Assembly (NCBI RefSeq): GCF_026810445.1 | Contig: NZ_CP113949.1 | Span: 4,216,001 to 4,280,000 of the forward strand | Source: Pseudomonas sp. BSw22131 | Lineage (GTDB): Bacteria > Pseudomonadota > Gammaproteobacteria > Pseudomonadales > Pseudomonadaceae | Reading direction: 5' to 3' | Length of the DNA: 64,000 nucleotides | Shown: in pieces, positions 3,345 through 45,536 of the stretch | Layout: every line of letters starts with the position of its first letter | How positions within the stretch are numbered: the stretch's first letter is position 1 | Translations under genes and position numbers: made by a program | The notes under the pieces: model-generated | What the model was told of the DNA's origin: nothing | Database searches by the model: none | The model's input: the letters and a program-made list of their open reading frames with translations, nothing else

Positions 3345-3354
3345 GGTTTTTGTA

Positions 3355-6594: not shown

Positions 6595-6605
6595 TTCACC
6601 CCAGA

Positions 6606-6634: not shown

Positions 6635-6734
6635 GAAAAGCAGGCACTGTCATGGGATTTTTCGCTACCCGACCGCAGCCGACGGTTACGGACTTACCCA
6701 CTTTGCCATCACTAAGCGCACCAAAATAAAGCAC

Positions 6735-7043: not shown

Positions 7044-7372
7044 GGGTTTCACCGAGTTGGAAATCGGGGGCAATGATAGCGTCCGGTTTTCTCCAGACAA
7101 ACCCAGATTCAAGTGATTGATTGCAGAGAACTTCGCACAAGCCGGTGGATATGGGGACATCAGTCAAAGATCGACCGGCATGATTGTGTATCTTTCTGTC
7201 GATTAAGCGACACCAACAGGCTTTGCCCCCCGCAGCCAGCTTTTCAAGCGCTCGACCGGCGCTCTAAACTGTTCCGGTACAGTTGCCCGGGGTGTGGCCT
7301 GGATACGTTAATCCGGTCCTGTGCCTATCGGCCGTCAGGATTATAAAAACGACAACGCAAGAGTGGAGCATC
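7044..7372. promoter_or_regulatory. Upstream region of the BCAA transporter operon, with an 18-bp dyad
   Basis: This is the 329-base leader and promoter region of braC. It contains an imperfect dyad at 7267-7284 (AACTGT, six bases, ACAGTT) that could be an operator for a nutrient-responsive regulator; its spacing is too short for a LexA site. No small gene or riboswitch is recognised. The braC ribosome site is TGGAG at 7364-7368. Confidence 0.35.
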
Positions 7373-16658: not shown

Positions 16659-16832
16659 GCAGCTCGGCCCCAGTTCGCGGGGCCTTGACATAAATTGTCA
16701 CCAAATAACGCAAATCTTGTATACATACCAACGCTCATTTTTTATAACAAAAACGAATATAACTTTTGTTTTAAGAAATAAGAACACGGGTTAGGGTGTC
16801 GCTCCCTTCGCGCAGAGACATGGAGAGCGCCC

Positions 16833-29842: not shown

Positions 29843-30340
29843 ATGACCGACAGTTTTTCCACCCGCACGCCACAGCAAGCGTTGGCAGCGCTGCTGGACC
29901 TGCATGCGCCCAAGCGTCTTTTACTGATAGGCGCCCAGACGTTTCCTGCGTTGCAGGCGTTTCAGGAAGCGCATCCGGGCACCGAAGTCGCACTCGCCTC
30001 ACCCGGTCCACTGCCGCCTGAACTTGCGGCTCAGCGCTTCGACCTCGCCTTGGTTGTAGATTGCCTGGAGCACATTCCGAAACGTGTGGGTCTTGAGCTG
30101 CTTGGCGGGATTCGTAACCTCAACGCGAGCCGGATCGCGGTGCTGGCGGACCTTACGGCTGCGGGCTGGCAAACCACTGACTTTTACTCGCTGGCCTTGC
30201 AGCTCAATGAACGCTTCACGCGCGATGATCAAGTGCTGACACTGTTCACCTACGATCTGCGTGAGTACAAACAGGTCCCGGACTGGCTGAACGCGAAGTT
30301 CTGGGCCAACCCGGAAAACTTCGGCAAATACTGGTGGTAA
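29843..30340 (+). CDS. DUF6231-like protein; island integration target
   Basis: This is a 165-residue cytoplasmic protein with a Rossmann-like core (APKRLLLIGAQTFPALQAFQ, then FDLALVVDCLEHIPKRVG), the D-C-L-E-H resembling a methyltransferase motif post-I, but it is too short for an active SAM methyltransferase. It resembles the DUF6231 family of pseudomonads. GAGGG precedes the ATG. The last 44 bases, ending FGKYWW and TAA, recur at 45009-45052 with TGA just before ychJ. This gene's 3' end is therefore the left junction of the 14.7-kb island, and originally it probably abutted ychJ. Confidence 0.75.
   Translation: MTDSFSTRTPQQALAALLDLHAPKRLLLIGAQTFPALQAFQEAHPGTEVALASPGPLPPELAAQRFDLALVVDCLEHIPKRVGLELLGGIRNLNASRIAVLADLTAAGWQTTDFYSLALQLNERFTRDDQVLTLFTYDLREYKQVPDWLNAKFWANPENFGKYWW
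30297..30340 (+). repeat. Direct repeat, left copy (putative attL of the 14.7-kb island)
   Basis: These 44 bases starting AGTTCTGGGCCAACCCG match 45009-45052 except for one G/A change and the stop (TAA here, TGA there). The insertion point is therefore at the 3' end of the DUF6231-like gene, keeping its protein sequence unchanged. Confidence 0.9.
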
Positions 30341-31204: not shown

Positions 31205-31777
31205 TCAGCGAATCTGCTTGCCCATGTTAAATCGAAGCAACATCAGCGCCGCATCGCAGGCATCGCCGGCAAAGTGGCTTTTGCTGAAGGCCTGGGCATT
31301 CACCGTGGCCCCGTCGAGCAGCATCATGATGTAGGTCGCGAGGGTATTAGCCGTATCGGGGGTGTGGTGGCGTGCTAATTCGTGCTCAACAAGCGCATGC
31401 AGTTTGTGCTTGTAGTCAAGGGCGATCTCCCGGATGTCGGAGTGCTCCGGGTACTCGCCCACCGCGCGGCCGAACAGGCAGCCGGCGAAGCTGGTGGAAC
31501 AGAACCACTGACCACGCCAATCGAAGATCGAAATGATCTTTTCTTCCAGGCTGGGCTTTTCATCCATACGCGTCTTCAATTGCTCGATCAGATGTGACGA
31601 GCGTTGCGTCAATACGGTTTTGACTAGGTCTTCCTTACCGTTGAAATTACGGTACATCGTCATTCTGGCGACGCCCGACGCTTCGATGATCCAGTCGACA
31701 CCTACGGGGTGGAAACCGTGCTGGGAAAACAGGCTGGTAGCAGTGTCAACGACATGCTGCTTCTTCGATACGGACAA
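31205..31777 (-). CDS. TetR-family transcriptional regulator of the island cluster (TTG start)
   Basis: This is a 190-residue protein. The N-terminal TetR helix-turn-helix is clear: VVDTATSLFSQHGFHPVGVD, WIIEASGVARMTMYRNFNG and KEDLVKTVL. The C-terminal ligand domain reads LAGCLFGRAV-like (FAGCLFGRAVGEYPEHS) and resembles other small TetR repressors. The start is TTG with GGAG seven bases upstream; there is no in-frame ATG in the HTH-containing part before it. A dyad ATAGAC-CA-GTCTAT lies 55 bp upstream and is likely its own operator. It is last in the minus-strand direction of the cluster but has its own promoter gap. Confidence 0.85.
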   Translation of the reverse strand: MSVSKKQHVVDTATSLFSQHGFHPVGVDWIIEASGVARMTMYRNFNGKEDLVKTVLTQRSSHLIEQLKTRMDEKPSLEEKIISIFDWRGQWFCSTSFAGCLFGRAVGEYPEHSDIREIALDYKHKLHALVEHELARHHTPDTANTLATYIMMLLDGATVNAQAFSKSHFAGDACDAALMLLRFNMGKQIR

Positions 31778-31830
31778 CTCGGAACTCCAGGTTCAAGCAG
31801 CTGGGATGGGCGAAAACCGTAACATTATGA

Positions 31831-31846
31831 TATAGACCAGTCTATC
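31831..31846. promoter_or_regulatory. Probable TetR operator (TATAGACCAGTCTATC)
   Basis: The half-sites ATAGAC and GTCTAT are perfectly inverted around CA. This form (ATAGACYRGTCTAT) is common for AcrR/TetR-type repressors that bind their own promoter. It is placed between the tetR start at 31777 and the end of the SDR gene at 31886. Confidence 0.65.
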
Positions 31847-31885
31847 TCGGTCTCGTTTCGGTGTTTCGCCCATATGTCGCAAAAC

Positions 31886-32596
31886 TTACGTAAAGCTCAC
31901 GGTATCCCCGCCGTCTACGGCCAGTACAGTGCCGCTGATCATTGGGTTGGTGGCCAGCAGCAGGGCCGCCGAGGCGATGTCTTCAGGCCGGGCTATGCGT
32001 TTGACGGGGAGTGCCTGGCTGCGTTGGCGCATTTTTTGTACCAGTGCTTCGGGGTGCATGCCGGTGTCGACGAAGCCCGGGGACAGCACATTGACGCGCA
32101 CCGGCGAGAGTTCGCTGGCCAGCCCGCGGGCAAAACCTTCGATACCGGCGTTGACCGCGCTGATCAGTGCCGTCTGCGGCCCGGCCCGCTGGGCAAAACG
32201 CCCCGAGATCAGGATCAGCGAGCCGTCCTCGTCGAAAGGTGCCAGCCGGGCAATGTGGTACGCCGCCCAGAACTTGCTGTCGAAGATGCGCTGCGCATCC
32301 TCCAGCGCAACGCTGCGCACCGGCCCGAACGTCAGCGAGGCGGCGGTGACAATAATGTGCTTCCAGCGCGTGGGCCGAGCAAAAAAGCGCTCCAGTTCGG
32401 CCGGCTGCGTGACGTCCAGTGGCACGGTTGCAACATCGGCGCCGATGTCGTGCGCCGCCTGGCTTAGCCGCACTGCAGTGCGCCCCGCCAGGGTGACCGT
32501 GGCACCTTGCTGGTGGAACAATTTGGCGATGGCAAAGCCGATACCGGCGGAGCCGCCGATGACCAGGACCTGGGTGTTGCGCTCAAGCATAGGCAT
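31886..32596 (-). CDS. SDR family oxidoreductase (cluster member)
   Basis: This is a 236-residue classical-size SDR. The NAD(P) loop is LVIGGSAGIGFAIAKLF, AGRTAVRLSQAA suggests NADP preference (Arg after the second strand), and the C-terminal NVLSPGFVDTGM and SGTVLAVDGGDTV are standard. The catalytic Ser is in LILISGRFAQRAGP, but the usual Tyr-x-x-x-Lys is replaced by ALISAVNAGIEGFA, so Tyr is missing and the chemistry is uncertain. The ATG at 32596 follows a GGGGGAAG site. It overlaps the Dabb gene by 14 bases, so it is co-translated. Confidence 0.8.
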   Translation of the reverse strand: MPMLERNTQVLVIGGSAGIGFAIAKLFHQQGATVTLAGRTAVRLSQAAHDIGADVATVPLDVTQPAELERFFARPTRWKHIIVTAASLTFGPVRSVALEDAQRIFDSKFWAAYHIARLAPFDEDGSLILISGRFAQRAGPQTALISAVNAGIEGFARGLASELSPVRVNVLSPGFVDTGMHPEALVQKMRQRSQALPVKRIARPEDIASAALLLATNPMISGTVLAVDGGDTVSFT

Positions 32597-32903
32597 GACA
32601 GTCTTCCCCCTGTGACAAAGGGTTTGGGAGCGGGTAATCAAAAATCAACATCTGGCACAGCGCACGCAAGCGGGGGCGAAAGCCTGCGTGTAACGGGTGT
32701 TCTCGCCAGCTGGGTAGCACGGACTCGTCGGTAAACGTGAGGATAAAACCCTGGTCGTAACCCAATGAACGGTCGCCGCTGTCGGCAATCACTTCCACCG
32801 CGACCAGGCCGGGCACACGGCCGGGAAAGCCGTGCAGTTCCTGTAGCAGCGCCGAGACGGCCGGGGCGTCAGGGCTTTTGAGCAAAACGATGCGCTTATA
32901 CAT
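32583..32903 (-). CDS. Dabb-domain (stress-responsive alpha/beta-barrel) protein
   Basis: This is a 106-residue protein with the Dabb order beta-alpha-beta-beta-alpha: YKRIVLLKSPDAPAVSALLQ, PGLVAVEVIADSGDRSLGYD, QGFILTFTDESVLPSWREHP. These dimeric ferredoxin-like barrels include polyketide cyclases such as plant olivetolic acid cyclase and also monooxygenase-like folds. The conserved histidine sits in REHPLHAGF. In this cluster a cyclase or isomerase role on an oxo-acid is possible but inferred only. GGGAG precedes the ATG. It overlaps both neighbours. Confidence 0.75.
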   Translation of the reverse strand: MYKRIVLLKSPDAPAVSALLQELHGFPGRVPGLVAVEVIADSGDRSLGYDQGFILTFTDESVLPSWREHPLHAGFRPRLRALCQMLIFDYPLPNPLSQGEDCHAYA

Positions 32904-33768
32904 GGAGGTTCTCCCATTCGATCAAGTTGCTCAGGCGCGGGCCGTTGTCGAACTCGCACACCACGGTATCGCCGTGGCTAAGGTGGATACCGGCGTCGGC
33001 ACTGTTGCAATCGGCGCCCATATAGAGGTAGATCAGCGTGCCGGGCAGTCGCAGTGACGGGTGCTGCCATAGGGTGTCGAACAGGTCATCGGCGTCATAA
33101 CACAGGCAGGAAAGGCCGGTACTGAAACTCTGTTCCCAGTGCAGGTCGCCCGCGCGGTAGATGGAGGTTGTGCCCCTTATCAGGTCGGGCAGAGGCTGCC
33201 AATACAGCAGGTGGGAAATGGCGCTGGGCTGCAACTTGGCGTAGGCCAGGTAGTTGCGCTTGGATTTGGCCAGGGCGATATCGGTAAGGTCGTTGCCGAA
33301 GGTGTAGCCGATGTAGTCCGGGCGGCCGTTGTCGGCCACCAGAAACAGCGCCACCACTTCCGCCTCCTCACACGCCGACAGAGCGCCGCGACTCATGCGC
33401 AGCACGTCGCCGCTGCTCTTGAGCGTGTCGGCAAAGCCCTTGATAAAAAAGGCCGGGCGCTCGTCGCTTTCCGGTGGTTGCGCGACTTTGCTCTGGTGGG
33501 TCAAGCCAAAGCCGCACACCACGCCCTGGCGCGGGTCGGGCGGCAGCAGGCAAGGCAGCAGCTCAAATCCTGCAAGGTCGGTAACCGTCAACGGCGCTGG
33601 CGAGTGTTCGCGCAGATACGCCAGTGGCCCACCGGGGAATTCGCGCGCCGGTGTGTCGCGCAACAACACATACAGGTCGGAGACCGGGTAGAGGCTGTAT
33701 TGCCCGGCGGTGCTGAGGCTGGTGACATAGCGCTGGCCGCCCCGCACGCATTCAAAAATGATCGACAT
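32896..33768 (-). CDS. Fumarylacetoacetate hydrolase (FAH) superfamily protein
   Basis: This is a 290-residue protein. The C-terminal half shows the FAH fold: GYTFGNDLTDIALAKSKRNY, LAYAKLQPSAI and the strand SNLIEWENLHV. FAH-family enzymes cleave C-C bonds of 2,4-dioxo acids, or isomerise or hydrate 2-hydroxydienoates, with a divalent metal. The acidic metal ligands expected as E-x-E (here VVALFLVADNGRP upstream) are only partly recognisable, so activity is open. AGGAG lies eight bases before the ATG at 33768; the 10-codon extension is unlikely. It starts 10 bp after the ThDP gene. Confidence 0.7.
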   Translation of the reverse strand: MSIIFECVRGGQRYVTSLSTAGQYSLYPVSDLYVLLRDTPAREFPGGPLAYLREHSPAPLTVTDLAGFELLPCLLPPDPRQGVVCGFGLTHQSKVAQPPESDERPAFFIKGFADTLKSSGDVLRMSRGALSACEEAEVVALFLVADNGRPDYIGYTFGNDLTDIALAKSKRNYLAYAKLQPSAISHLLYWQPLPDLIRGTTSIYRAGDLHWEQSFSTGLSCLCYDADDLFDTLWQHPSLRLPGTLIYLYMGADCNSADAGIHLSHGDTVVCEFDNGPRLSNLIEWENLHV

Positions 33769-33778
33769 GGGCAAGCTC

Positions 33779-35500
33779 CTAGAGGGTCTTGATTTCAAGC
33801 AGGGCGGGTTTGCCGTGAGTTTCCATATAGGCTAGGCAGTCGGCGATCTTTTCTTGAATCGACGCAGGGGTGTCGGCGCTGCCAGGACTATAGAGGTCGA
33901 AGGTTTTCGCCAGGGCGACGAAATCCACTTCGTTTTCAAGGAAGCTGGTGCCCAGGTTGGACAGGTCGCTGGGCCGCTGGCGCAGGTCGGCAATGCGTTC
34001 GGCGTGTTGCTTGGAATTGAGGTAGAGGCGGTTATTGATCACCAGCACCAGCAAGGGAATGTCGTAGGCCGACAAGGTCCACAGGGCACTCGGGGTATAG
34101 AGCAAATCGCCATCGGATTGCAGGTTGATGCTCAGCCGGCCCGTGCCCTTGTGGGCAACGGCCGCGCCGATGGCTGCGCCCAGGCCATAACCCAGCCCGG
34201 CGCCGCCGCTCATGCCGATATAAGCCTCGCTACGTTCGATTGGCCAAAGCTGGCGCACCAGGGTGTCGATGGTCACGCTGCCAGTGTTGGTGAGTACCCA
34301 ACGCTGATGCCCGATGGCTTCGTGGATAGCGATCAGCGCCTGGGCGATAGTCAGGCCATCTGCAGGTTGGGTGACCTGTGCAAGCAACGCCTGGCGGCGT
34401 ACCTGCTTGTAAGCCGCAATACGCGCGATGCGTTCGTTCACCAAGGCTCGCGCCGTGCTATCGCACCGTTCGGCGGATGCCTGCACCGCCTCGGCAATAC
34501 GCGCGATGGAGGCGACCACGTTGGCGTGCAGGACCAGGTCGGCGCACACCAGTTTCTGGCTGTCGGCCACCCAACTGCTGATGAGCAGCGAATGGGTGCC
34601 CAGTGTGGCGATGTACAAACCTGGGTGGGGTTTCTGCCCAGAGTTGGCCAGCAGGCCATACAGGTCCTGGACTTCCAGGGCCAACAGAAAGTCGCATTCG
34701 CCCAGCAGGTGTGCATCATGGTCCTGGAAGACCAGAGGGTGGGTATTGGGCACGTTATACCGGCCATTGCGTGAAATCACAGCGGTACCGGTGAGGCTGG
34801 CGATCCCCAGCAGCTGCTCGGCCTGCTTATCGTCGAGTGCGGCGTAGTCAATGGCGATGACGGGGTACTGCGCGGTCATCAACTGGGTGACCAGTTCGGC
34901 CAGTTGCTGGTCGTCCAGCGCCGGCAAGCGTTCCGGGCGCACCGGCCCGGCCGGCAGTGAGAGCCCGTCGGCCAGTGACTCTTCCTGAACCGCACTGTCG
35001 ATGGCGACATAACACGGGGCATGGGGCTCGGCGGCGCAGAGTTTGAGCGCGCGTTGCACCGACTCCAGGGTGGCGGCCTGGGACACCGGCATGTCCGTCC
35101 ATTTGGTGTAGCCCGAGAGGATTTTATCGATGCTCTGGGATGTGTGAATCCAGTCGATCCACGGGCGGCGCAGGGCCGCATCAATCGGCCCATTGCCGCC
35201 CAATACCAGCAACGGCACGCGGTCGCACCAGGCGTTGAAGATGGCCATGCTCGCGTGCTGCAAGCCGATATTGGCGTGCACCAATACCGCCATGTGCTTG
35301 CCGCTGGCTTTGTAATAACCGTGGGCCATGGCCACCGAGATTTCTTCATGGCAGCACATCAGGATGGCCGGCACGGCATGGTCGGGGTGATGCACCAGCG
35401 AGTCATGAATGCCGCGAAATGATGCGCCGGGGTTGAAACAGACGTACTCGATGCCCTGGTTGATCAACAGATCCACAAGCAAATCGGAAAAATACTTCAT
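33779..35500 (-). CDS. Thiamine diphosphate-dependent enzyme (acetolactate synthase / decarboxylase superfamily)
   Basis: This is a 573-residue three-domain ThDP enzyme. The pyrimidine domain holds the activating Glu in MCCHEEISVAMAHGYYKASG (E52/E53). The middle domain reads LLVLGGNGPID and onward. The PP domain has the GDG-x-NN motif SDGDLLYTPSALWT to VLVINNRLYLN. The sequence is nearer to 2-oxo-acid decarboxylases/ligases of the IlvB type than to MenD. It would decarboxylate or ligate a 2-oxo acid and make the carbon skeleton of the product. It overlaps the enolase-superfamily gene by four bases (ATGA). GGAG precedes the ATG. Confidence 0.85.
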   Translation of the reverse strand: MKYFSDLLVDLLINQGIEYVCFNPGASFRGIHDSLVHHPDHAVPAILMCCHEEISVAMAHGYYKASGKHMAVLVHANIGLQHASMAIFNAWCDRVPLLVLGGNGPIDAALRRPWIDWIHTSQSIDKILSGYTKWTDMPVSQAATLESVQRALKLCAAEPHAPCYVAIDSAVQEESLADGLSLPAGPVRPERLPALDDQQLAELVTQLMTAQYPVIAIDYAALDDKQAEQLLGIASLTGTAVISRNGRYNVPNTHPLVFQDHDAHLLGECDFLLALEVQDLYGLLANSGQKPHPGLYIATLGTHSLLISSWVADSQKLVCADLVLHANVVASIARIAEAVQASAERCDSTARALVNERIARIAAYKQVRRQALLAQVTQPADGLTIAQALIAIHEAIGHQRWVLTNTGSVTIDTLVRQLWPIERSEAYIGMSGGAGLGYGLGAAIGAAVAHKGTGRLSINLQSDGDLLYTPSALWTLSAYDIPLLVLVINNRLYLNSKQHAERIADLRQRPSDLSNLGTSFLENEVDFVALAKTFDLYSPGSADTPASIQEKIADCLAYMETHGKPALLEIKTL

Positions 35501-36690
35501 CGCGTACGCTCCATGTGGTGGGACAGATAGGTGTGTTCGTCTGCGCCGATGGCGCAGCGATAAGGCAGTACGTGGGCGGTCAGCCGCCCGCCAAGGCCCT
35601 GTTGCATTTGGGCTGGCAAGTGAATGGCGTTGTGTTGCCGGTCTATCGCCGGCATGGGTTCGAGCAGGTGGTCGTCGAAAAAGCGGTCGTGCTGGCCGGC
35701 CTCCACGCCGATAAAACCGTCAAAGGCCGCCAGCAGTGCGCGGTGGGCGGCAATCAGCGGGCCGACTTCAGCGACCTGCACGCCCAGGTAGACCGGCAAG
35801 CCCCAGCGGCGGCATTGCTCTATCATTTTTGCGCTGCTGAGCAAGCCACCGCATTTGGCAATGCGCAGGTTCACCGCATCCAGCGCCTGGTTTTGCCAGG
35901 CGTGTTCCAGGCTCAGGGCCGAGGTGACCGACTCGTCGAGCATGATCGGCACGCCATGCTTGAGGCGCGCCTGGCGGTAATCCTCCAGGCTGCCACGCGG
36001 CAAGGGCTCCTCGAACAACGCCACGCCGAGCTCGCGAAACTGCCGGGCGCTGCTGTGAAGTTGCGCGGGTGACCAGCTCATATTCGGGTCGACATACAGC
36101 GCCAGGCTCGGCGCAAGCGCCCTGATGCTGTCCAGGCGCTGTTGATTGGCCCGGACATCGCCGGCCAGTTTGAGCTTGAGCGAGCGCAACGGTTTGCGCT
36201 GTTCGAGGAACGCGTGCACCGATTGCGACAGGTCGAGCACCTGGGTGATGTTGACCTGGGCGGGCAGTGTACGGCGCGCCGCCGGGGGCGCCTCGGTGAT
36301 GCGCAGCAGGTAGGCGGACAAGGGCAGTCCGGCCTGTTGCGCCAGAGTGTCGAGCAGCGCCATTTCCACCAGGCAGCGGGTATTGTTGCCCAGGCTTGCA
36401 TCGGTCTCGCAGGGCAGGCCGTACTCATAGAGCGCACGGCCTCGGTCGACCGGGTCGCCGCTGGCCAATGCTTTTGCCAAGTGCGCGAAGTCAAGGCTGC
36501 GCAGTTGGGTCAGCACCGACTCGCAGTCTTCGCCTGTCACGTAGCGGCGCGGCGCGCATTCACCGATCCCTGTAAAGGCGCCGAGCGTCCAACTGAGCAC
36601 CACACTGTCTGAAGTGTGGCGTCGGTGGGCGCCATGCACGAACGGGTTGGCCATGGGCTGGCGCACCAGGTAGACCTCAGGCGGCGTCAT
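35497..36690 (-). CDS. Enolase-superfamily enzyme (muconate lactonizing / dipeptide epimerase subgroup)
   Basis: This is a 397-residue protein with an N-terminal capping domain and C-terminal barrel. The second-strand lysine pair is LKLKLAG, the metal ligands are Asp in YVDPNMSW, Glu in ALFEEPLPRG and Asp in PIMLDESVTSA, and the opposite-face lysine is in VNLRIAKCGGL. This is the complete MLE-subgroup set (K-x-K, D, E, D, K), so the enzyme should abstract a proton next to a carboxylate and racemise, cycloisomerise or eliminate. The substrate is unknown. It is coupled to the ThDP enzyme and to the hydrolase gene by overlaps. Confidence 0.85.
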   Translation of the reverse strand: MTPPEVYLVRQPMANPFVHGAHRRHTSDSVVLSWTLGAFTGIGECAPRRYVTGEDCESVLTQLRSLDFAHLAKALASGDPVDRGRALYEYGLPCETDASLGNNTRCLVEMALLDTLAQQAGLPLSAYLLRITEAPPAARRTLPAQVNITQVLDLSQSVHAFLEQRKPLRSLKLKLAGDVRANQQRLDSIRALAPSLALYVDPNMSWSPAQLHSSARQFRELGVALFEEPLPRGSLEDYRQARLKHGVPIMLDESVTSALSLEHAWQNQALDAVNLRIAKCGGLLSSAKMIEQCRRWGLPVYLGVQVAEVGPLIAAHRALLAAFDGFIGVEAGQHDRFFDDHLLEPMPAIDRQHNAIHLPAQMQQGLGGRLTAHVLPYRCAIGADEHTYLSHHMERTR

Positions 36691-37555
36691 AGGCGTAGCG
36701 TCCGTTGGCTTTGACGAAGTCGGCGGTGAACCGCACGACCTGCCCCATGGCCGGGGTAAAAAACAGGTAGTGCTTGTCTTGATTCACCAGCAGGGTCGAG
36801 CCGTTGCGGCACAGGCGCTGGAAGTGGCCCACCGTGGCATTTACGTCCACCAGCGGATCTTTATTGGCGCAGATAAACAGGCTGGGCGCGTCGATAGGAC
36901 GGGCGTCGACCGCCAGGTAAACCTTCTCCAAGGCCAGCAACTTCTTGCGTTCGCGATGCTGCAGGTGAGTGGTCGCAAGCGAGTCGTTACGGATAAATTC
37001 GACCAAGTGCGGGTTGGCGGTGAAGTCCTCGGCGTCGAGCCCCGAATCCCACAGGCTGTGTCGGTCGTCCAGGTCGATACTGGCGCGCTCCTGCTCACTC
37101 AACCGGTCGTGCATCTTGCCCAGCGACGCCGAGCAGATGACCAGATTGTCATAGGGCAATTGCGCATAAGAGCTGCTTGCGATGGCGGCCAGCACCGACC
37201 CGCCCAGGCAGTGGCCGAACAGGCACAGCGGAATGTCGTCGGGCACTTCGCAGCGAATGTGCTCGATGGCTGCCGCCGCATCCTCGTGCAGCGTGCGCAC
37301 GTCCGGGAACCCATGTTTCTGGCCGCTGCTGATGCCGCACCCTTCGCGGTCGAGGGCGTAAAACGCGATGCCCAGGTTGGCGAAGGCGTTGCCCACCGAC
37401 CACAGCCACCCGGCGTGGCTTTGCAGGCCATGAAAATACAAAATGGCGCCTTGCGGACGCTGCGGGCGCCAGGCGTGCAGGGCCATGCGCCGATCTGCCT
37501 GAGCCAAGTGGTGAACTTCACGCGCAATGCTGTGTGCAAACAAGTGCATATTCAT
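36677..37555 (-). CDS. Alpha/beta hydrolase with Cys in the nucleophile elbow
   Basis: This is a 292-residue alpha/beta hydrolase of the monoacylglycerol-lipase type: the oxyanion-side ILYFHGLQSHAGW, DREGCGISSGQKHGFP, and a lid region of variable sequence. The nucleophile elbow reads LFGHCLGGS (G-x-C-x-G, Cys116) where lipases have Ser. The acid is in FICANKDPLVD and the base in VNQDKHYLFF. Cys at this position occurs in dienelactone hydrolases, polyhydroxyalkanoate synthases and some thioesterases, so this may be an acyltransferase or cyclising enzyme and not a simple lipase. The ribosome site is GAGAGG. It is placed between GH3 and enolase-superfamily genes. Confidence 0.8.
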   Translation of the reverse strand: MNMHLFAHSIAREVHHLAQADRRMALHAWRPQRPQGAILYFHGLQSHAGWLWSVGNAFANLGIAFYALDREGCGISSGQKHGFPDVRTLHEDAAAAIEHIRCEVPDDIPLCLFGHCLGGSVLAAIASSSYAQLPYDNLVICSASLGKMHDRLSEQERASIDLDDRHSLWDSGLDAEDFTANPHLVEFIRNDSLATTHLQHRERKKLLALEKVYLAVDARPIDAPSLFICANKDPLVDVNATVGHFQRLCRNGSTLLVNQDKHYLFFTPAMGQVVRFTADFVKANGRYAYDAA

Positions 37556-37570
37556 GAGTGCCTCTCAAAG

Positions 37571-39226
37571 TCAGAATTGCTGGATGCCCAGCAGGGACAG
37601 GTCCGGTTGGAAGGGCTTGTATTTGATCTGCAGGGTTTTCCTCGCGGCCTTTTCGCGCTCGATGGCCATGGAGATCGCGTTGCCGGGCACCGTGATGACC
37701 TTGATTTGCCCCAGGCGCTTGCTGGAGCGCTTGGACTCGTACTCGATATTGATCGCCTGCAGGTGCCCGTCGAGCAGTTGGCTGAGGGTCTGCGACTCGC
37801 CGCACGATGCGCCGCCGGCCTCGATGGCTACGGCGTAGTAAGGCGTTTCGTGCCAGACCGGGGCGCACAGGTAGAGCCCGGCATTGGGAATGCCGCACAT
37901 CTGTACGGCTTCGTGTAGCTGGGTCTCGGTGATCTTTTCGCCGGTAAAGGAGTGCATGACGCCGTTGCGCCGGCTGAAACTGATGCGCGGCACGCCGCGG
38001 TAGTAGCCGTGCACGCGGTAAATATCACCGGTGTACATGCGGACCATGCCGTTGCCTTGCCACATGACCAGGTGGTATTCGTCGCCTTCTTTGAGTTGGT
38101 CCAGGGCAACGGTTTCGGGCTGCGCCTGATCGCGTACCAGCGCATCCATGTCCACCGACACGGGGATGAACTCGAAGAACGCCTGGTCCACCGCCAGCGG
38201 TTGGCTGTCCTGGTCAGCGTCCATCGGTAGGGTCACCACACCTTCGGTACCGCACGACATGAAGGGCAGCACCTTGGCCTGCCCCATGATCCGCTCCAGC
38301 TGAGGCTTGTAGAGTTTGGCCGACGCCGCCGTCCAGCAACTGAAGCGCTCAAGCCCCGGCCATACATCGGTCAGCGACACCCCGTCAGCGGCGAGCACAG
38401 TCTCCAGCCGTCGCGCGGCAGCCGGGTCGGCCGCGCGCAAGAGGCTGCCGGTGTGGGCGCCGTCATGCAGGTCACGCAGCAGAAGCTCGCTGTTTTCCAG
38501 CAGGCTGTGGTGCAGGGAAAGCAGGGTGCTGGGGTTGATGGCGGTGAGCAGCCTTACGTCTTCGCCCAAGGTCCACAGCAGCCGCGCGTACATCTTCTGC
38601 TCATGGCTGGCATCTTGGGTCGGCGTGAACCACGGGGCTTCATACCAGGGCGGGTTCCAGTCGCCGCTGCCGATTTGCGGGTGGCGGTTGCTGATGGCCT
38701 GATAGGGAAGGCCATCCACGTATTCGTTACTCGGGTCACGTACGGTCTGGGTGTCCAGCGTGGCCCAGGGGTTGGCATGCAGCGCCGGGTAGTCATGGCC
38801 AAAAAAGCCCCACATGGCCTGGATGGCGGGCACCCGGTACTGGCGGATCCAGTGCAACGTGTAAGGAATGCGTTTGGACTGGCCGGTGGTGCCGCTGGTC
38901 TTGAGCCAGCGCACCACCGGGCTGCAGCTGAGTATCCCGCCTTTTTGCTGGCCTTCACGCACCAGGATTTCACGAAACCCTTCGTAGGTCATGACCGGGA
39001 TGTTAGTGCGGGTGATGCGGCCGTTGCAGTGGCTGACCTGAAAGCGGTTTTCCTTCCAGAACAGCGATTTCTGGCACACCGAAATGATGTCCTCAAGCAC
39101 GTGTTCCTGCGTCCTGAGGGGTTTGTCGAGCCTTTCCAAATAGTTCGCTTGCGCTTGGGCGCATTCAGCTTTGAAGGTAGGCACCCTGCGTTCCCAATGG
39201 CCGATCCAAGAGTCCATCTTGCCCAT
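37571..39226 (-). CDS. GH3-family acyl-acid amide synthetase
   Basis: This is a 551-residue member of the firefly-luciferase-like GH3 family, known in plants for joining jasmonate or auxin to amino acids (AMP-forming). The ATP P-loop is LKTSGTTGQSKRIP (residues 109-122), the acyl pocket motif is SCWTAASAKLYKPQLER, and the C-terminal hinge is RISFSRRNGVMHSFTGEKI. Bacterial GH3 genes are often found in biosynthetic clusters with unknown amine partners. The ATG at 39226 follows GAGG eight bases upstream; the longer frame from 39334 would run through the AT-rich promoter. It is the first gene of the minus arm. Confidence 0.85.
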   Translation of the reverse strand: MGKMDSWIGHWERRVPTFKAECAQAQANYLERLDKPLRTQEHVLEDIISVCQKSLFWKENRFQVSHCNGRITRTNIPVMTYEGFREILVREGQQKGGILSCSPVVRWLKTSGTTGQSKRIPYTLHWIRQYRVPAIQAMWGFFGHDYPALHANPWATLDTQTVRDPSNEYVDGLPYQAISNRHPQIGSGDWNPPWYEAPWFTPTQDASHEQKMYARLLWTLGEDVRLLTAINPSTLLSLHHSLLENSELLLRDLHDGAHTGSLLRAADPAAARRLETVLAADGVSLTDVWPGLERFSCWTAASAKLYKPQLERIMGQAKVLPFMSCGTEGVVTLPMDADQDSQPLAVDQAFFEFIPVSVDMDALVRDQAQPETVALDQLKEGDEYHLVMWQGNGMVRMYTGDIYRVHGYYRGVPRISFSRRNGVMHSFTGEKITETQLHEAVQMCGIPNAGLYLCAPVWHETPYYAVAIEAGGASCGESQTLSQLLDGHLQAINIEYESKRSSKRLGQIKVITVPGNAISMAIEREKAARKTLQIKYKPFQPDLSLLGIQQF

Positions 39227-39539
39227 GCGTTCGTCCTCAATGACGTGAAAGGAAGAGAGACTGGTACGTCTCTGTTGTAAGTATTTATGCTCTCGAAATT
39301 TATGTGTCAATATGTTTCTTGTTATTAGATCCAATCATTCGATTTGTATGACGAGGTCAATAAAATCTTGATTTAAGTTATCAAGTAACTGTTATTTAAG
39401 TTTTTTTTGTTTTGTTTTGAGAGTGTTTTTTCGACCCTGAGCCAAAAATGAAATTTTATTTATTGAAATTTTGTGTTGACGGGAAAGCGATAATTTGAAA
39501 ACCATGTAGAACGATCAGTATCAAAAGGAGGGCGATTCC
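39227..39539. promoter_or_regulatory. Divergent promoter region of the cluster
   Basis: These 313 bases are very AT-rich (39290-39500) compared with the flanking genes. They separate the GH3 arm and the aldo-keto reductase arm and must contain both promoters. A dyad AGAGAC-(6)-GTCTCT lies at 39256-39273, 30 bp ahead of GH3. It does not match the ATAGAC operator near tetR, so regulation by that TetR here is unproven. The low GC suggests H-NS/MvaT-type silencing is possible. Confidence 0.55.
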
Positions 39540-40526
39540 ATGGTTTCCAGGATCACGTTGGGTACTCAAGGGCTGCGTGTTGGCCGCATCGGCCTTGGCT
39601 GCATGGGCATGAGCCAGTGGTATGGCGCGACGGATGACAATGAATCGGTGCGCACCCTGCACCGCGCGCTGGAGCTGGGCGTGGACTTCTTCGATTCGGC
39701 GGAGGCGTATGGGCCGTTTACCAACGAGCGACTTTTGCAGCGCGCGTTTGCTGGTCGGCGTGAAGAGGTGGTGATCGCCACCAAGTTTGGTTTCCGTATC
39801 GTCGACGGCCAGATCGTTGGCGTCGACAGTTCGCAGGGCAATCTGCAAAAGGTCGTCGAGGCCTCCCTCAAACGGCTGGGTACGGACCACATCGACGTGC
39901 TGTATCAGCACCGGCTCGATCCCAGCATTCCCATCGAAGAGGTGGTAGGCGCGATGGGGCGCTTGGTTGAGCAAGGCAAGGTCAAATACCTGGGCCTGTG
40001 TGAGGTGGGGACAAGCACGATCGAGCGCGCCCATAAAACCCACCCGATATCCGTGGTCCAGGGTGAGTACTCGTTGTGGGAGCGCAATGTCGAGCAAGAG
40101 ATCTTGCCGCTGCTGCACAACCTGGGAATCGGCTACGTCGCGTTCTGCCCCTTGGGTCGCGGTTTTTTGACCGGCAAGGCCGTCAGCGCCGCGCACTACG
40201 ACGCCAATGACTTCCGCCAGCAGGACCCGCGCTTTCGCGAAGAAAACTTCGCAACCAATACCTTCCTGACCGAGTCGATTCTGGCGCTGGCCGCCTCTTG
40301 GTCAATGACGCCCGCGCAACTGGCGCTGGCCTGGTTGCTGACGCGCAGCCCTCACCTGACGGTGATCCCCGGCACCAAGCGTGTGGCCTACCTGGAAGAA
40401 AACGTAGCCGCCGACGACTGCGTGCTCAGCGATGAACAGCTTCAGGCGATCGAGGCCTTGCTGAGGCAGTGGGCGGTTGCCGGTGAACGTTACGAGCAGC
40501 GAATGATGCAGTTCATCGACCGATAG
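39540..40526 (+). CDS. Aldo/keto reductase
   Basis: This is a 328-residue (beta/alpha)8 NADPH-dependent oxidoreductase. The catalytic tetrad is visible: Asp and Tyr in DFFDSAEAYGPFTNE, Lys in IATKFGF, His in LYQHRLDP. The C-terminal cofactor site is TVIPGTKRVAYLEENV. It belongs to the AKR13-like group (IGLGCMGMSQWYG). In the cluster it would reduce a carbonyl of the intermediate. AAAGGAGG lies at a good distance before the ATG. First gene of the plus arm. Confidence 0.92.
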   Translation: MVSRITLGTQGLRVGRIGLGCMGMSQWYGATDDNESVRTLHRALELGVDFFDSAEAYGPFTNERLLQRAFAGRREEVVIATKFGFRIVDGQIVGVDSSQGNLQKVVEASLKRLGTDHIDVLYQHRLDPSIPIEEVVGAMGRLVEQGKVKYLGLCEVGTSTIERAHKTHPISVVQGEYSLWERNVEQEILPLLHNLGIGYVAFCPLGRGFLTGKAVSAAHYDANDFRQQDPRFREENFATNTFLTESILALAASWSMTPAQLALAWLLTRSPHLTVIPGTKRVAYLEENVAADDCVLSDEQLQAIEALLRQWAVAGERYEQRMMQFIDR

Positions 40527-40546
40527 GCACTGCCAGGGAGGCCAGC

Positions 40547-41704
40547 ATGCAATCGCACCGCTTGCTTGACGAAACGGAACAGCGCTTTCACCAGAACTTT
40601 TTGCAACGTAACGGCAACACGCAGGTGACCTCCTTGCTGACGGTGCCTGGATGTGTGGGCCCTGTGCAGGCCCGCAAAGCGTTCGCGCAGTTGGTGGTGG
40701 AGTACCCGTTTCTGCACCAGAAGATTGTGGCTGTCGGTGACGGCCAGTACGGGTTCGTGCCGGTCGAAAATCACGTGCAGTCGTCGACCTGCACAACACC
40801 GCCGTCGCGGCGTACCGACGTGTTGCTCAAGCTTGAATTGAACCGCTTGCTGGGGGATCAAGAGGGCTGGCGCGCGTTAGTGGTTGCCGATTCCGAGATC
40901 AACCAGACCCATATTCTGCTGACGCGTAACCATGCGATCTCCGACGGCTACAGCACCGCCAGGCTGGTCAACAGCCTGGCCGGTTACCTGGGCGCGATGC
41001 CCGCGAGCCTCGATAGCCGGGTGTCGCAGGCGTTCCATATCCGCCTGAAGTATTGGCGCGGGTCACCCCTTGAGACGGGCAAAGCCAGCTACGCCGATTT
41101 TGTCCAGTTGCAGGTCAGCCGCCAGGCCGCAGAACGCCTGGATCAACTGCGCGCGGCGTCTGGCTTCACCACCAATGCCATTTGGGGTGGGGTGCTGGCG
41201 CACAGTTTTCTCAGCTACGCGGATGTGCCGGCGTTCGACTTGTTCACCGCGTACTCACTGCGTGAACCCGCCAGCCATGGCCATCCGTTGACCAAGGCCT
41301 GCCTGATCGATGTGCGCAAAACCACGTTTGCGCGCCAAAACCCAGGCGTGCTCGAGTGTATTGAGCGCTATGCGCAGGCGGTCGCCGAGGGCAGGGCGCA
41401 ACTGGGTGCGCCCTCGCCCAGTGCGGCCAACGACAGCCCGCGGCCCGCGCTTGCCTTTACCAATACCGGGCCGCTGGACCGCTTCTTGACTCACCCCGCG
41501 CCGGCCGTGCTCGGGTTTTCAACCCTAGTTAACCGCTCCGGCGGCAACTACGACTTCGTCTTGCACCTGGGCAGATTCAATGGCAACTGGCATGCGGCGC
41601 TGGCGTTCAGTTCGCTGAAAGTCGAGCGCGCTACGGCACTGGCGTTCAAGGCGCAGATCGAGGCGACCCTGGAGTCGCTGCCGGCTGCGCTCCACACCTC
41701 CTGA
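40547..41704 (+). CDS. Condensation-domain-like acyltransferase (PapA / alcohol acetyltransferase type)
   Basis: This is a 385-residue stand-alone protein of the chloramphenicol-acetyltransferase-like condensation superfamily. The active-site HxxxDG is RNHAISDGYS (His129, Asp133). The N-terminal half (RKAFAQLVVEYPFLHQKIV) and a C-terminal strand (LAFTNTGPLDRF) fit the two-lobed V-shape. Stand-alone members make esters or amides between an acyl-CoA or acyl carrier and an alcohol or amine. There is no carrier protein in the island, so an acyl-CoA donor is more likely. The ATG has GGGAGG upstream. Confidence 0.75.
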   Translation: MQSHRLLDETEQRFHQNFLQRNGNTQVTSLLTVPGCVGPVQARKAFAQLVVEYPFLHQKIVAVGDGQYGFVPVENHVQSSTCTTPPSRRTDVLLKLELNRLLGDQEGWRALVVADSEINQTHILLTRNHAISDGYSTARLVNSLAGYLGAMPASLDSRVSQAFHIRLKYWRGSPLETGKASYADFVQLQVSRQAAERLDQLRAASGFTTNAIWGGVLAHSFLSYADVPAFDLFTAYSLREPASHGHPLTKACLIDVRKTTFARQNPGVLECIERYAQAVAEGRAQLGAPSPSAANDSPRPALAFTNTGPLDRFLTHPAPAVLGFSTLVNRSGGNYDFVLHLGRFNGNWHAALAFSSLKVERATALAFKAQIEATLESLPAALHTS

Positions 41705-41714
41705 GGAATTGATA

Positions 41715-43094
41715 ATGGATACTTCCAGTAATAAGAAGTTGACGCTGTTCGCCACCTGCCTTGGCTTTGTGGTGGTGCTGCTCGATGTGAGCGTGGTCAA
41801 CGTGGCCCTTGAAAGTTTCAAGGCGGAGTTCGCCACCGACGTGCTGCAACTGCAATGGATCGTCAACGCCTACACGCTATTGTTTGCCTCGTTTTTGCTG
41901 ACCGGCGGCGCATTGGGTGACCGGTTTGGCCACAAGAAAATCTTCCTGTGGGGGTATGCGGTCTTTAACTTGGCATCGCTCGGCTGCGGTCTGGCGGACA
42001 CCTTGCCCGCGCTTATCGGCTTTCGGGCGCTGCAAGGCATTGGCGCAGCACTGTTGGTGCCCACATCCCTTGCGCTGGTGCGAATTACCTTTGAGGTGCC
42101 CGCCGAACGCAGCAAGGCCATCGCCTTGTGGGCGGGCGTTGCCGGTATCGCGCTGGCCGCCGGCCCGGTGGTGGGCGGCTTGCTGATTGGTGTGTTCGGC
42201 TGGCGCAGCATCTTTTTCATCAACCTGCCCATTGGCCTGATCGGCATTGTGCTTTGCCTGGCCAACGCGCCACGTATCCCGCCCAACCACAAAGGCGGTT
42301 TCGACTTGTGGGGGCAGCTGCTGGCGTTGTTTACCTTGGCCAACTTGACCTACGCGGTGATCGAGTTGGGCCGCCAGAACGGCGTCGATCTGCGCGTTGC
42401 GGTGCATGCCGTGTGCTTTGTCGGCGGCTTGCTCGGGTTTTTGTGGGTCGAGTCGCGAACTGCCCGGCCGATGGTGCCGCTCACAGTGTTCAACAACGCG
42501 GCGTTCAGCCTGGCCTCGATCTTGGGCGTGATCGTGAACTTCGTGTTCTACGGGCTGATTTTCGTGTTCAGCATCTTTTTACAGCAGGTCAATCACTACT
42601 CGGTGATCAATACCGGGCTGGCCTTTATCCCCATGACCGGCGTGCTGTTTTTCGGCAATCAGCTGGCTGCCCGCTGGCTGCCCAAGTTGGGTGAGCGGCG
42701 CCTGCTGGCGCTGGGCCTGGCCATCGCGCTGCTCGGCGTGGTGGCACTGACACCCTTCGTGGGTGGCGCGCCTTACGCCAACATCGCCGTGCAAATGTTT
42801 GTGATCGGCTTCGGTATTTCACTCACGGTGCCCACCTTGACCGCCACTGCCGTCAACCACGTCAGCAGTGATAAGTCCGGCGTGGCGTCCGCCATCGTCA
42901 ATGCCTCGCGCCAAGTGGGTGGCCTGATCGGAGTGGCCATCTTCAGCCTGTTGATCAACGTGACCGATGCAGCCCAGTTCGGCCACGGGTTCGCCCAAGT
43001 TATCGCCTTGTCCTCGCTGCTATTGGCCGCGGGCTGGGCGTTGACGCTCGTGCTGTTGCGCAAGCAACCCCTGGCCGCGCAATCGGCCACCTGA
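41715..43094 (+). CDS. DHA2-family MFS exporter (EmrB/QacA-like)
   Basis: This is a 459-residue transporter with fourteen hydrophobic segments. The N-terminal motif D1-like LLDVSVVNVALESF is followed by motif A (GGALGDRFGHKKIFLWG) and the antiporter motif C-like GVAGIALAAGPVVGGLL. This is the drug:H+ antiporter-2 type. Within a biosynthetic cluster it most likely exports the product and gives self-protection. The ATG at 41715 is chosen; a TTG six bases earlier is less likely. GAGG lies 8 bp before. Confidence 0.9.
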   Translation: MDTSSNKKLTLFATCLGFVVVLLDVSVVNVALESFKAEFATDVLQLQWIVNAYTLLFASFLLTGGALGDRFGHKKIFLWGYAVFNLASLGCGLADTLPALIGFRALQGIGAALLVPTSLALVRITFEVPAERSKAIALWAGVAGIALAAGPVVGGLLIGVFGWRSIFFINLPIGLIGIVLCLANAPRIPPNHKGGFDLWGQLLALFTLANLTYAVIELGRQNGVDLRVAVHAVCFVGGLLGFLWVESRTARPMVPLTVFNNAAFSLASILGVIVNFVFYGLIFVFSIFLQQVNHYSVINTGLAFIPMTGVLFFGNQLAARWLPKLGERRLLALGLAIALLGVVALTPFVGGAPYANIAVQMFVIGFGISLTVPTLTATAVNHVSSDKSGVASAIVNASRQVGGLIGVAIFSLLINVTDAAQFGHGFAQVIALSSLLLAAGWALTLVLLRKQPLAAQSAT

Positions 43095-43134
43095 AGCAGT
43101 GCTCAATAAACCCTGGAAGCAATGGAGATTGAAC

Positions 43135-43965
43135 ATGCAAGCAGTCATGAAGACCGAGGCAAATTCCGGCTACGCGCCGCACCAACTGGATGCCCAGCAA
43201 ATCCTGGATTTTCGGGCCAATGGGTGGATGAAGCTGGAAAATGTGATCAACGCCGAGACGGTGCAGATGTTGCTCCAAGAGGCCAAGACCCGCATGGGCG
43301 AAGTGGCGCGCACGGTCGATCGCAACGACCCGGGCAAGCAGATCGAGAATGCCTACCGCTGGTATGCGCGCTGGGATGAAGTCTCCAGCACCTGCCCGCA
43401 GATCAAGGCGCTCAGCCATTCGCCTCAGTTGGCCAGCATTGCTTCGCAACTGGTGGGCGAGGAAGTGCGGTTCTATTCCGACCACGTGTTCGCCAAGAAC
43501 CCCGAGTCCGAGGCCGGTGGCGACACCCCTTGGCATCAGGACTTTCCCCACCATCCGCTGGATCGGCAGGGCGCGCTCAATATCTGGATCGCATTGGTCG
43601 ACCTGACGCCGGAGATGGGCACCATGCAGTTTCTCAGCCGCAGCCATCGGGCGGGCATGCTAGGGCGTTACTTCAACCGCAGCGATAACGTGACCTTGCT
43701 CGACGAGCATCCTTGGGTGCTGGACGAGTTCGAGATGTCGCCGCCGATTGCACTCAAGGCCGGCGATGCCACGGTGCACGACATGAACGTGATCCATGCG
43801 GCGCCCGCCAATAGCTCCAATGTGCCGCGCTGGGTGTATTCCACCCTATGGCTGCCGGTTTCGGCGCGCTACACCGGCGCCTCGAACCATCGCACCGATC
43901 CGCTTGGGCTGACGCTCGACATGCCCATGGAGCACCCCAAGTTTCCCGTTATCCCGACCCGTTGA
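43135..43965 (+). CDS. Phytanoyl-CoA dioxygenase (PhyH) family Fe(II)/2-oxoglutarate oxygenase
   Basis: This is a 276-residue double-stranded beta-helix oxygenase. The metal-binding H-x-D is TPWHQDFPHH (His134, Asp136); the distal His is in DMNVIHAAPANSSNVPR, with the Arg that salt-bridges 2-oxoglutarate some 10 residues on. NPESEAGGDTPWHQDF is typical of PhyH proteins that hydroxylate or desaturate small molecules. The start at 43135 follows GGAG; the upstream ATG at 43099 lacks one. It probably tailors the product. Confidence 0.88.
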   Translation: MQAVMKTEANSGYAPHQLDAQQILDFRANGWMKLENVINAETVQMLLQEAKTRMGEVARTVDRNDPGKQIENAYRWYARWDEVSSTCPQIKALSHSPQLASIASQLVGEEVRFYSDHVFAKNPESEAGGDTPWHQDFPHHPLDRQGALNIWIALVDLTPEMGTMQFLSRSHRAGMLGRYFNRSDNVTLLDEHPWVLDEFEMSPPIALKAGDATVHDMNVIHAAPANSSNVPRWVYSTLWLPVSARYTGASNHRTDPLGLTLDMPMEHPKFPVIPTR

Positions 43966-44026
43966 CAGCCTTGTACTCCGACCGGCACTTGCCGGTCGGC
44001 GTTCTATTACGTGAGGGGAACTGAAC

Positions 44027-44410
44027 ATGCCACATGTCTATCTTGAGTACACCGCAGGGGTGGCTGACGAGGTTGATTTCAAAAGTGCCTGCCAGCGTCT
44101 GCATCGAACACTGGTCGAGGTGTCGGGGTTGCGACTGGACCTGGTCAAAACTCGCCTTGTCAGCTACGACCACGCGTTCGTTGGCGATTGTGACGAGCGC
44201 CAGCATTTCATCCACCTCAACGTCTCCACGGTGACCGGCAAGGCCGGTGGCGATGAGCAGCGACGCGCGATCAGCACGGCGCTGCTTGCGGTGATGGCCG
44301 ATATCTTCGCGCCTGCGCTGCTGCGACATAAAGTTGATCTCTCGGTGCAAGTCACCGAGGTTCCGGCCAGTGGCTATGTGCGCAAGCGATCGACGACCTT
44401 GCTGCCGTGA
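44027..44410 (+). CDS. CHMI-like tautomerase (5-carboxymethyl-2-hydroxymuconate isomerase family)
   Basis: This is a 127-residue protein of the tautomerase superfamily. Pro2 (MPHVYLEYTAGV) is the expected catalytic base after Met removal. SYDHAFVGDCDERQHFIHLN and VSTVTGKAGGDEQRRAISTA are CHMI-type strands. It could isomerise an enol-oxo acid. Together with the FAH-like protein it resembles steps from homoprotocatechuate breakdown, re-used in this cluster. GAGGGG precedes the ATG. Last gene of the plus arm. Confidence 0.8.
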   Translation: MPHVYLEYTAGVADEVDFKSACQRLHRTLVEVSGLRLDLVKTRLVSYDHAFVGDCDERQHFIHLNVSTVTGKAGGDEQRRAISTALLAVMADIFAPALLRHKVDLSVQVTEVPASGYVRKRSTTLLP

Positions 44411-45008: not shown

Positions 45009-45052
45009 AGTTCTGGGCCAACCCGAAAAACTTCGGCAAATACTGGTGGTGA
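45009..45052 (+). repeat. Direct repeat, right copy (putative attR of the 14.7-kb island)
   Basis: This is the partner of 30297-30340, ending in TGA (45050-45052), 10 bp before ychJ. It encodes the last codons of the DUF6231-like gene ([13 protein letters not shown]). Its G-to-A change gives Lys for Glu in the repeated peptide. Confidence 0.9.
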
Positions 45053-45062: not shown

Positions 45063-45536
45063 ATGAGCAGTTCGACTTGTCCCTGCGGCAGCGGCAATCT
45101 GATGCACGCTTGCTGCGGCAATTACCACTCCGGCCAGCCCGCGCCGAGCGCCGAGGCACTGATGCGCTCACGCTACAGCGCCTACGTGCTGGGGCTGATC
45201 GATTATCTGGTCGACACCACCCTCCCCGCGCAAACTAATGCTCTGGACCGCGAATCCATCAGCCAATGGAGCGCGCAGAGCACCTGGCTAGGGCTTGAAG
45301 TGGAGAGCGCAGACGTGTTTGGCGGTAAACCCCAGCATGCATTCGTGACCTTCATCGCTCGCTGGCACGACTCAGCGGGAGAGCACAGTCATCGTGAGCG
45401 CTCGGCGTTCGTCCAGAATCAAGGCCGTTGGTACTTCATCGACCCCACGGTGACGTTCAAAGCCGGCCGCAACGACCCCTGTCCATGTGGCAGCGAGCAT
45501 AAATTCAAGAAATGCTGCGCCGCGTACGTCAACTGA
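45063..45536 (+). CDS. ychJ: YchJ family SEC-C protein (UPF0225)
   Basis: This is a 157-residue protein with two SEC-C zinc-binding motifs: N-terminal [19 protein letters not shown] and C-terminal [17 protein letters not shown], each with the C-x-C...CC pattern. The NTF2-like middle ([21 protein letters not shown]) is typical of YchJ. Function unknown, possibly linked to SecA-like zinc chaperone contacts. It starts 10 bp after the repeated DUF6231-like tail, which shows the ancestral gene order was DUF6231-like gene, then ychJ. Confidence 0.9.

Follow-up and report, generated by a model that had tools for sequence, protein, structure and literature searches.

A block of 13 genes at 31205-44410, one of which encodes a GH3-type acyl-acid amido synthetase, was analysed in a window of 64,000 nucleotides from Pseudomonas sp. 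BSw22131 (contig NZ_CP113949.1, positions 4,216,001 to 4,280,000), to which all position numbers refer. The open reading frames (ORFs) are tightly packed in two divergent arms (Table 1): the minus arm is transcribed in the order gh3, abh, enol, thdp, fah, dabb, sdr and tetR, and the plus arm in the order akr, cond, mfs, phyH and chmi. This layout had been proposed in a sequence-only reading by a model, and both the 13 ORFs and their family calls were confirmed by profile. Families were assigned from Pfam and NCBIfam profiles, while the acyltransferase (cond) was assigned from a profile of its homologues searched against solved structures. As that reading also stated, genes overlap or nearly touch: neighbours from sdr to gh3 overlap by 4-14 bp or are spaced by 10-15 bp (assuming starts at 32596 for sdr and 33768 for fah), and the gaps in the plus arm are 20, 4, 4 and 61 bp. 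Co-expression is likely, given the gene overlaps. None of the 13 proteins matched a carrier-protein family (Pfam, E up to 0.01).

Table 1. Genes and other features of the block and its borders (window coordinates; gene functions are family assignments)
Feature	Position	Strand	Evidence or remark
Left direct repeat, 3' end of DUF6231 gene	30297..30338	+	41/42 bases identical to right copy
TetR-family regulator (tetR)	31205..31777	-	TetR_N PF00440 1.4e-11; orthologue in each of 7 further intact Pseudomonas clusters
Operator-like palindrome TAGACCAGTCTA upstream of tetR	31833..31844		exact in 6/7 aligned loci, one mismatch in L011
Atypical short-chain dehydrogenase/reductase (sdr)	31886..32596	-	SDR profile 9.4e-35; YxxxK pair absent
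Dabb alpha/beta-barrel protein (dabb)	32583..32903	-	PF07876 1.1e-9
Fumarylacetoacetase (FAH)-superfamily, AraD1/GguC-like enzyme (fah)	32896..33768	-	NF040903 2.7e-28, below cut-off
Thiamine diphosphate (ThDP)-dependent enzyme (thdp), PRK08327-like; relative of benzoylformate decarboxylase and acetolactate synthase	33779..35500	-	TPP_enzyme N 3.5e-22, C 1.1e-18
Enolase-superfamily enzyme, MLE subgroup (enol)	35497..36690	-	MR_MLE_C PF13378 1.4e-30
Alpha/beta hydrolase (abh), monoglyceride-lipase-like, Cys replacing Ser nucleophile	36677..37555	-	Hydrolase_4 PF12146 6.8e-26
GH3-type acyl-acid amido synthetase (gh3), 551 aa	37571..39226	-	PF03321, PF23571, PF23572
Divergent A+T-rich promoter region between arms, 313 bp (predicted)	39227..39539		
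Inverted repeat AGAGAC-N6-GTCTCT upstream of gh3, possible second operator	39256..39273		6/6 loci spanning interval (L008 copy ends short)
Aldo/keto reductase (akr)	39540..40526	+	Aldo_ket_red PF00248 4.8e-72
Stand-alone condensation-type (PapA5-like) acyltransferase (cond), HxxxDG intact	40547..41704	+	homologue profile, motif
DHA2 (EmrB-type) major facilitator superfamily (MFS) exporter (mfs)	41709..43094	+	PF07690 2.4e-52; TIGR00711 247.8 bits, cut-off 230.2
PhyH Fe(II)/2-oxoglutarate oxygenase (phyH)	43099..43965	+	PF05721 1.5e-24
CHMI-family tautomerase (chmi)	44027..44410	+	PF02962 1.8e-17
Right direct repeat, immediately before ychJ	45009..45050	+	following bases resemble L050 empty-site junction

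The block is an island inserted between two genes that are otherwise neighbours. DUF6231 (29843-30340) and ychJ (45063-45536) are adjacent in 21 of 21 other Pseudomonas genomes (G001-G021), a count that omits G038, a genome from another family of the order with a DUF6231 match and no flank similarity by blastn; in the window they lie 14.7 kb apart, and the insertion is bounded by 42-bp direct repeats. The repeats look like the product of integration at the 3' end of a gene. No integrase was found in the island, where the longest non-cluster ORF between the repeats (177 aa) is too short and not all such ORFs were Pfam-scanned. Direct repeats at other insertion sites were seen in only one of six loci tested (L009, 21 bp at 95%).

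Searching genome contigs for the GH3 gave 21 loci, five in Pseudomonas and 16 elsewhere. Four of the five (in P. simiae, P. costantinii, P. japonica and P. kairouanensis) carry all 13 genes, and three further genomes (G196, G395 and G142) bring the intact relatives to seven, the P. japonica and P. kairouanensis genomes (G340 and G088) being counted once. The 13 genes are collinear in all seven, in different surroundings; loss of synteny in all relatives, the outcome that the sequence-only reading had set against its own proposal, is clearly not seen. A copy in Pseudomonas sp. MWU13-2100 (G006; loci L027/L077) is broken, with abh, enol and chmi missing, gh3 and thdp largely gone and phyH incomplete; the DUF6231-ychJ site of this genome (L060) is empty. 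In a set of 398 Pseudomonas genomes with one representative for each species, a close GH3 is present in seven, namely the source genome, five others and the broken copy, and a close ThDP enzyme in exactly the six with an intact close GH3. A second, distant GH3 type (24-29% identity) occurs in 12 of the 398 (e.g. G011, G311 and G321), which were not counted as carriers; the other cluster genes were not matched within the short stretches covered around it (L003, L034-L045, L048). One ThDP enzyme with 46% identity (P0205) is labelled Pseudomonas savastanoi pv. glycinea.

Cluster identity and gyrB identity disagree in both directions, which indicates horizontal transfer of the cluster as one unit between species. 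Relative to the window, cluster DNA identity is 94.9% for G196, 94.5% for G395 and 96.4% for the broken G006 copy (over 7.8 kb), with gyrB at 82.6, 82.6 and 83.3% identity to the source genome, respectively. The reverse is seen for G088 and G142, which share 92.1% in gyrB and 78.9% in the cluster. For G142, G340 and G088 compared with the window, cluster identity (84.3, 83.0 and 79.1%) is near or below that of gyrB (82.4, 81.7 and 83.1%). The genes next to the other copies encode GNAT and AraC proteins (L008), MFS and SAICAR synthetase proteins (L009), a GNAT protein (L010) and ShlB (L074), and 4 of 10 flank proteins scanned had no family match. Flanks were alike over long stretches only within the trio of G196, G395 and the broken G006 copy; the window flank has 229 bp directly after chmi in common with G395, and L011 shares 306 bp of more distant sequence with it. 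These flank comparisons place the limits of the mobile unit near 31205-44410, with ends that reach slightly further in the closest relatives. A plasmid collection held no near DNA match to the block and a single GH3 match at 35.5%, and phages, searched with the GH3 only, gave no match at 1e-10.

All 13 genes are under purifying selection, with ratios of non-synonymous to synonymous substitution (dN/dS) of 0.03-0.25 in four comparisons. The fastest-changing are enol, cond, chmi and dabb and the slowest phyH, mfs, gh3 and akr, an uneven divergence that may reflect variation of the acyl part of the product.

Outside Pseudomonas, gh3, abh and enol occur together in 16 of 16 loci. Seven of these (L012-L014, L016 and L020-L022, from Streptomyces, Streptacidiphilus and a contig named Streptosporangium) hold ten collinear homologues in the order akr-gh3-abh-enol-thdp-fah-cond-mfs-chmi-sdr at 27-60% identity, with akr at 57-60%, and L028 has eight homologues before the contig ends. 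The ten-gene clusters form one transcriptional arm, unlike the two of Pseudomonas, and four of the seven adjoin a polyketide synthase (PKS)-like protein, whereas the Pseudomonas block encodes none. Homologues of Dabb and PhyH turned up in no version but that of Pseudomonas; for Dabb, there was no match in 15 of the 16 loci and in L091 at 1e-6, or in L019 at 1e-8. A Burkholderia cenocepacia locus (L017) shares seven genes (sdr, mfs, gh3, abh, enol, thdp and fah) plus a tetR homologue, but has no AKR, acyltransferase, PhyH, Dabb or CHMI homologue within the 21.6 kb covered. It also encodes, at 5863-7845 and 16608-17735, a PF14518 iron-containing redox enzyme and a FAD/NAD(P)-binding protein, perhaps another oxidative partner for the core. 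No ThDP homologue was found in L015, L018, L019 and L023-L026, of which L018 and L019 end at contig ends; L015, L025 and L026 keep gh3-abh-enol-fah without it. Together with L018 these three appear to form a single type, in whose vicinity a CN-hydrolase, SDRs, an aminotransferase or an ATP-grasp protein is encoded (each family scanned in one or two loci). A 1.7-Mb gammaproteobacterial genome (L091, 66-2981) carries gh3, abh and the beginning of enol where a contig ends. Among 369 genomes drawn from the class, a GH3 match at 1e-60 was found only in the window and the L091 genome. A plasmid enolase match (H2) was rejected as a relative, as its neighbours are peptidase, ABC-transporter and regulator genes with no GH3.

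The catalytic or cofactor residues expected of each family are kept in the GH3, ThDP, enolase-type and FAH-like enzymes and in the acyltransferase, across the Pseudomonas, Streptomyces-type and, where present, Burkholderia versions. GH3 enzymes adenylate carboxylates and form amides. The N, M and C domains of the window protein match Pfam at 1.4e-29, 1.7e-15 and 4e-7, and its nucleotide-binding motif LKTSGTTG is invariant save one position across 12 sequences; 297 bacterial relatives were found at E 0.001 or better among 7999 candidates scored. The six full-length homologues nearest to it all measure 551 aa, so translation most likely starts at 39226 and not at the ORF limit of 39334. Family membership suggests that this GH3 is amide-forming, and it is likewise from families that the scaffold-forming and amide- or ester-forming roles proposed in the sequence-only reading are inferred. 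For the acyltransferase no Pfam or NCBIfam model matched, while a profile of 11 homologues matches the solved structures of Txo1 (2.1e-6) and a PDIM acyltransferase (4e-6). Its motif NHAISDG conforms to HxxxDG; compared with HHxxxDG, the catalytic His and DG are present and the first His is Asn. The nucleophile motif of the alpha/beta hydrolase is GHCLGG in 12 of 13 aligned sequences, with Cys in place of Ser, and GQSLGG in L091, which retains Ser; Cys-type alpha/beta hydrolases of other pathways often catalyse acyl transfer rather than hydrolysis.

The FAH-like protein has no Pfam match and reaches 98.9 bits against the NF040903 profile (AraD1/GguC, FAH superfamily; cut-off 340), with the EEAE motif and D160/D163 invariant in an alignment of 13 sequences. 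The CHEE Glu and the DGD...NN cofactor site of the ThDP enzyme are present in 9 of 9 aligned sequences. The MLE-subgroup signature of enolases is an acid/base pair of KxK and a second Lys with metal ligands, and K172, K174, D201, E228, D252 and K279 are invariant in 13 sequences; dipeptide epimerases have a DxD motif, and at that position (register judged by eye) the sequence reads VEAGQ. The N-terminal Pro of the CHMI tautomerase is kept (7/7 aligned). In PhyH the HxD motif and distal His were seen by eye, and the best solved relatives include SnoK, SnoN, MysH and EvdO2.

Taken together, the data make it probable that the block, spread by horizontal transfer, is a biosynthetic cassette by which an acylated small molecule is made and exported. 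Its core is unusual and crosses phyla, but the block is to be classed as an uncharacterised biosynthetic cluster and not as a new kind of system. That it acts as one functional unit is supported by its collinearity in seven other Pseudomonas genomes and the recurrence of ten genes in seven actinobacterial loci, which put it beyond a chance grouping. A biosynthetic rather than catabolic character is supported by the predicted acyl activation, the acyltransferase, the efflux-type exporter and the PKS neighbour of some relatives; the earlier description as a biosynthetic island agrees with these functions and with the empty site in 21 of 21 genomes.

The reactions of this type of ThDP enzyme are decarboxylation or ligation of 2-oxo acids; HxxxDG enzymes are acyltransferases, PhyH enzymes are hydroxylases and DHA2 pumps are exporters. 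In the proposed pathway, in which step order, substrate and product are inferred, the ThDP enzyme would decarboxylate a 2-oxo acid and form a C-C bond, and the FAH-like, tautomerase, Dabb and enolase-type enzymes would act on the oxo-acid so formed through keto-enol, elimination, cyclisation or epimerisation chemistry, with carbonyl reduction by the AKR. The GH3 would convert a carboxylate to an acyl-adenylate and pass it on, with an amine as the acceptor or, as a less conventional option, the Cys of the alpha/beta hydrolase. An acyl group would be added by the condensation-type enzyme, PhyH would hydroxylate and the DHA2 pump would export the product, with TetR repressing the genes until product or intermediate releases it. 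More tentatively, the GH3, Cys-hydrolase, enolase and FAH could be an unrecognised carrier-independent module that passes an adenylated acid on as a free or enzyme-Cys-bound acyl group; spread over Proteobacteria and Actinomycetota and partnered with a ThDP enzyme, an iterative PKS, PhyH or a PF14518 enzyme, it would give a metabolite family invisible to carrier-based finders.

Several observations weigh against a biosynthetic cassette of this kind. The enolase, tautomerase and FAH folds occur in aromatic catabolism too. Neither the single acyltransferase sequence (E up to 1) nor the FAH-like protein, as sequence or as profile, found a match in the PDB. In all 9 aligned sequences the sdr protein is without the catalytic Tyr-x-x-x-Lys pair, which makes it unlikely to be an ordinary reductase, so some genes may act otherwise than their family names suggest. 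The GH3-hydrolase-enolase core is also present in the L091 genome, whose size makes an antibiotic-type product less likely there. Neither operator-like repeat exceeds chance expectation: the palindrome TAGACCAGTCTA is the sole match in the window at no more than one mismatch, yet at least one match arose in 42 of 100 shuffles, and inverted repeats sized like AGAGAC-N6-GTCTCT are not rare by chance in the interval upstream of gh3. Finally, the description of the cluster as carrier-free stands for the 13-gene block and fails for part of its family, in which the neighbour appears to be an iterative-type PKS. A large protein adjoins the cluster in 6 of the 16 loci (L016, L020, L021, L022, L023 and L028) and in L136, seven actinobacterial loci in all; that of L021 has ketosynthase, acyltransferase, dehydratase and acyl carrier protein domains (KS-AT-DH-ACP), and the others were recognised by similarity to it. 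In Pseudomonas, no type I PKS was detected in the source genome (G000), G196, G395 and G142, where every PF00698 match lies in an ORF of 315-386 aa; in G340 and G088 this domain is found in longer ORFs of 828-2220 aa.

The best-placed alternative, although unlikely, is a catabolic or detoxification island, in which a plant-derived aromatic or sugar acid would be taken up or expelled, conjugated by the GH3 and degraded by the enolase, hydrolase, FAH and CHMI enzymes along the lines of the muconate or homoprotocatechuate pathways. The enolase matches do include muconate cycloisomerases, the homoprotocatechuate pathway uses CHMI and FAH folds, and the ThDP enzyme resembles benzoylformate decarboxylase, but the NCBIfam matches of the enolase, ThDP and CHMI proteins fall far below the equivalog cut-offs. 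Moreover, no ring-cleavage dioxygenase, CoA ligase, thiolase or recognised importer was found among the 13 proteins (Pfam families), the transporter scores above the cut-off for the DHA2/EmrB efflux type, several relatives adjoin a PKS, and L012 (S. olivoreticuli ATCC 31159, a ten-gene version) has an AfsA-type protein nearby. Bestatin was considered as a product on account of this last host and set aside, no link having been found in the parts of the literature available.

A pathway to a cyclopentanoid or related C7-C8 dicarboxylate, resembling that of the borrelidin starter unit, with the GH3 and FAH corresponding to BorL and BorN, is improbable. The nearest recognised natural-product GH3, 36% identical to that of the window, is encoded on a Streptomyces plasmid (NZ_CP027299.1) in the series PKS-P450-aminotransferase-dehydrogenase-GH3-F420-FAH-thrS, which from its gene content we take to be the borrelidin right arm (borI-borO). 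The GH3-type synthetase and FAH-superfamily (FAA_hydrolase) enzyme common to both suggest some shared chemistry. However, the two FAH proteins are only remotely alike (hhalign probability 72%), and the remainder of the plasmid stretch is a modular type I PKS with its own P450, aminotransferase and F420 oxidoreductase, and the annotation of the part examined lists neither a ThDP enzyme nor an alpha/beta hydrolase or stand-alone acyltransferase. The comparison covered the GH3 and FAH, and no PKS is present in the 13-gene block. In a partial bor-like remnant of another genome (L124-L128, 100 kb) the window's other genes were unmatched at 1e-5, and the borrelidin papers, in their available parts, do not enumerate starter-unit genes. 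Streptomyces alfalfae XN-04 has an antiSMASH region typed as 'NRPS-like, T1PKS' (non-ribosomal peptide synthetase-like, type I PKS), scored as 20% similar to borrelidin (PMC8493286); this region might be a PKS-linked relative of the cluster.

Least probable is a menaquinone-like, aromatic-building route, in which four reaction types side by side would mirror MenD, MenH, MenC and MenE on a cyclohexadiene acid: there are weak MenC profile matches, but the analogy was rejected on the family of the ThDP enzyme, whose best matches are PRK08327 and benzoylformate decarboxylase with no MenD model among the best 25 of 44 families, and L015, L025 and L026 do without a ThDP enzyme.

As the sequence-only reading had supposed, no characterised pathway with the whole gene set was found in the open-access literature searched; subscription literature and MIBiG lay outside the search, so a published match is possible. 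In the open-access text available, no reaction in a comparable pathway is assigned to bacterial relatives of this GH3. The sole solved relatives found are plant GH3 acyl-acid amido synthetases (VvGH3-1, GH3.12 and JAR1), which share the three-domain family but are distant (about 42-68 bits), and the window GH3 sits in a bacterial operon. The rubiginone cluster of Streptomyces includes an annotated GH3 protein, RubP3, but is of angucycline type, unlike the block, and no role for RubP3 is stated in the accessible part of the paper (PMC8487521). The available portions of the paulomycin and Synteruptor papers do not mention GH3. Elsewhere in the window, positions 2001-4000 have a G+C content of 45%, compared with 60% and 57% in the adjoining 2-kb steps, and are possibly another foreign stretch.

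Here, a small, intact and transferable set of 13 genes is described that comes with natural presence/absence among Pseudomonas and a broken copy, which makes the metabolic role of a bacterial GH3 directly testable. Furthermore, its cross-phylum core provides a search key, GH3 followed by a Cys-type hydrolase and then an enolase, for clusters that carrier-based finders may miss.

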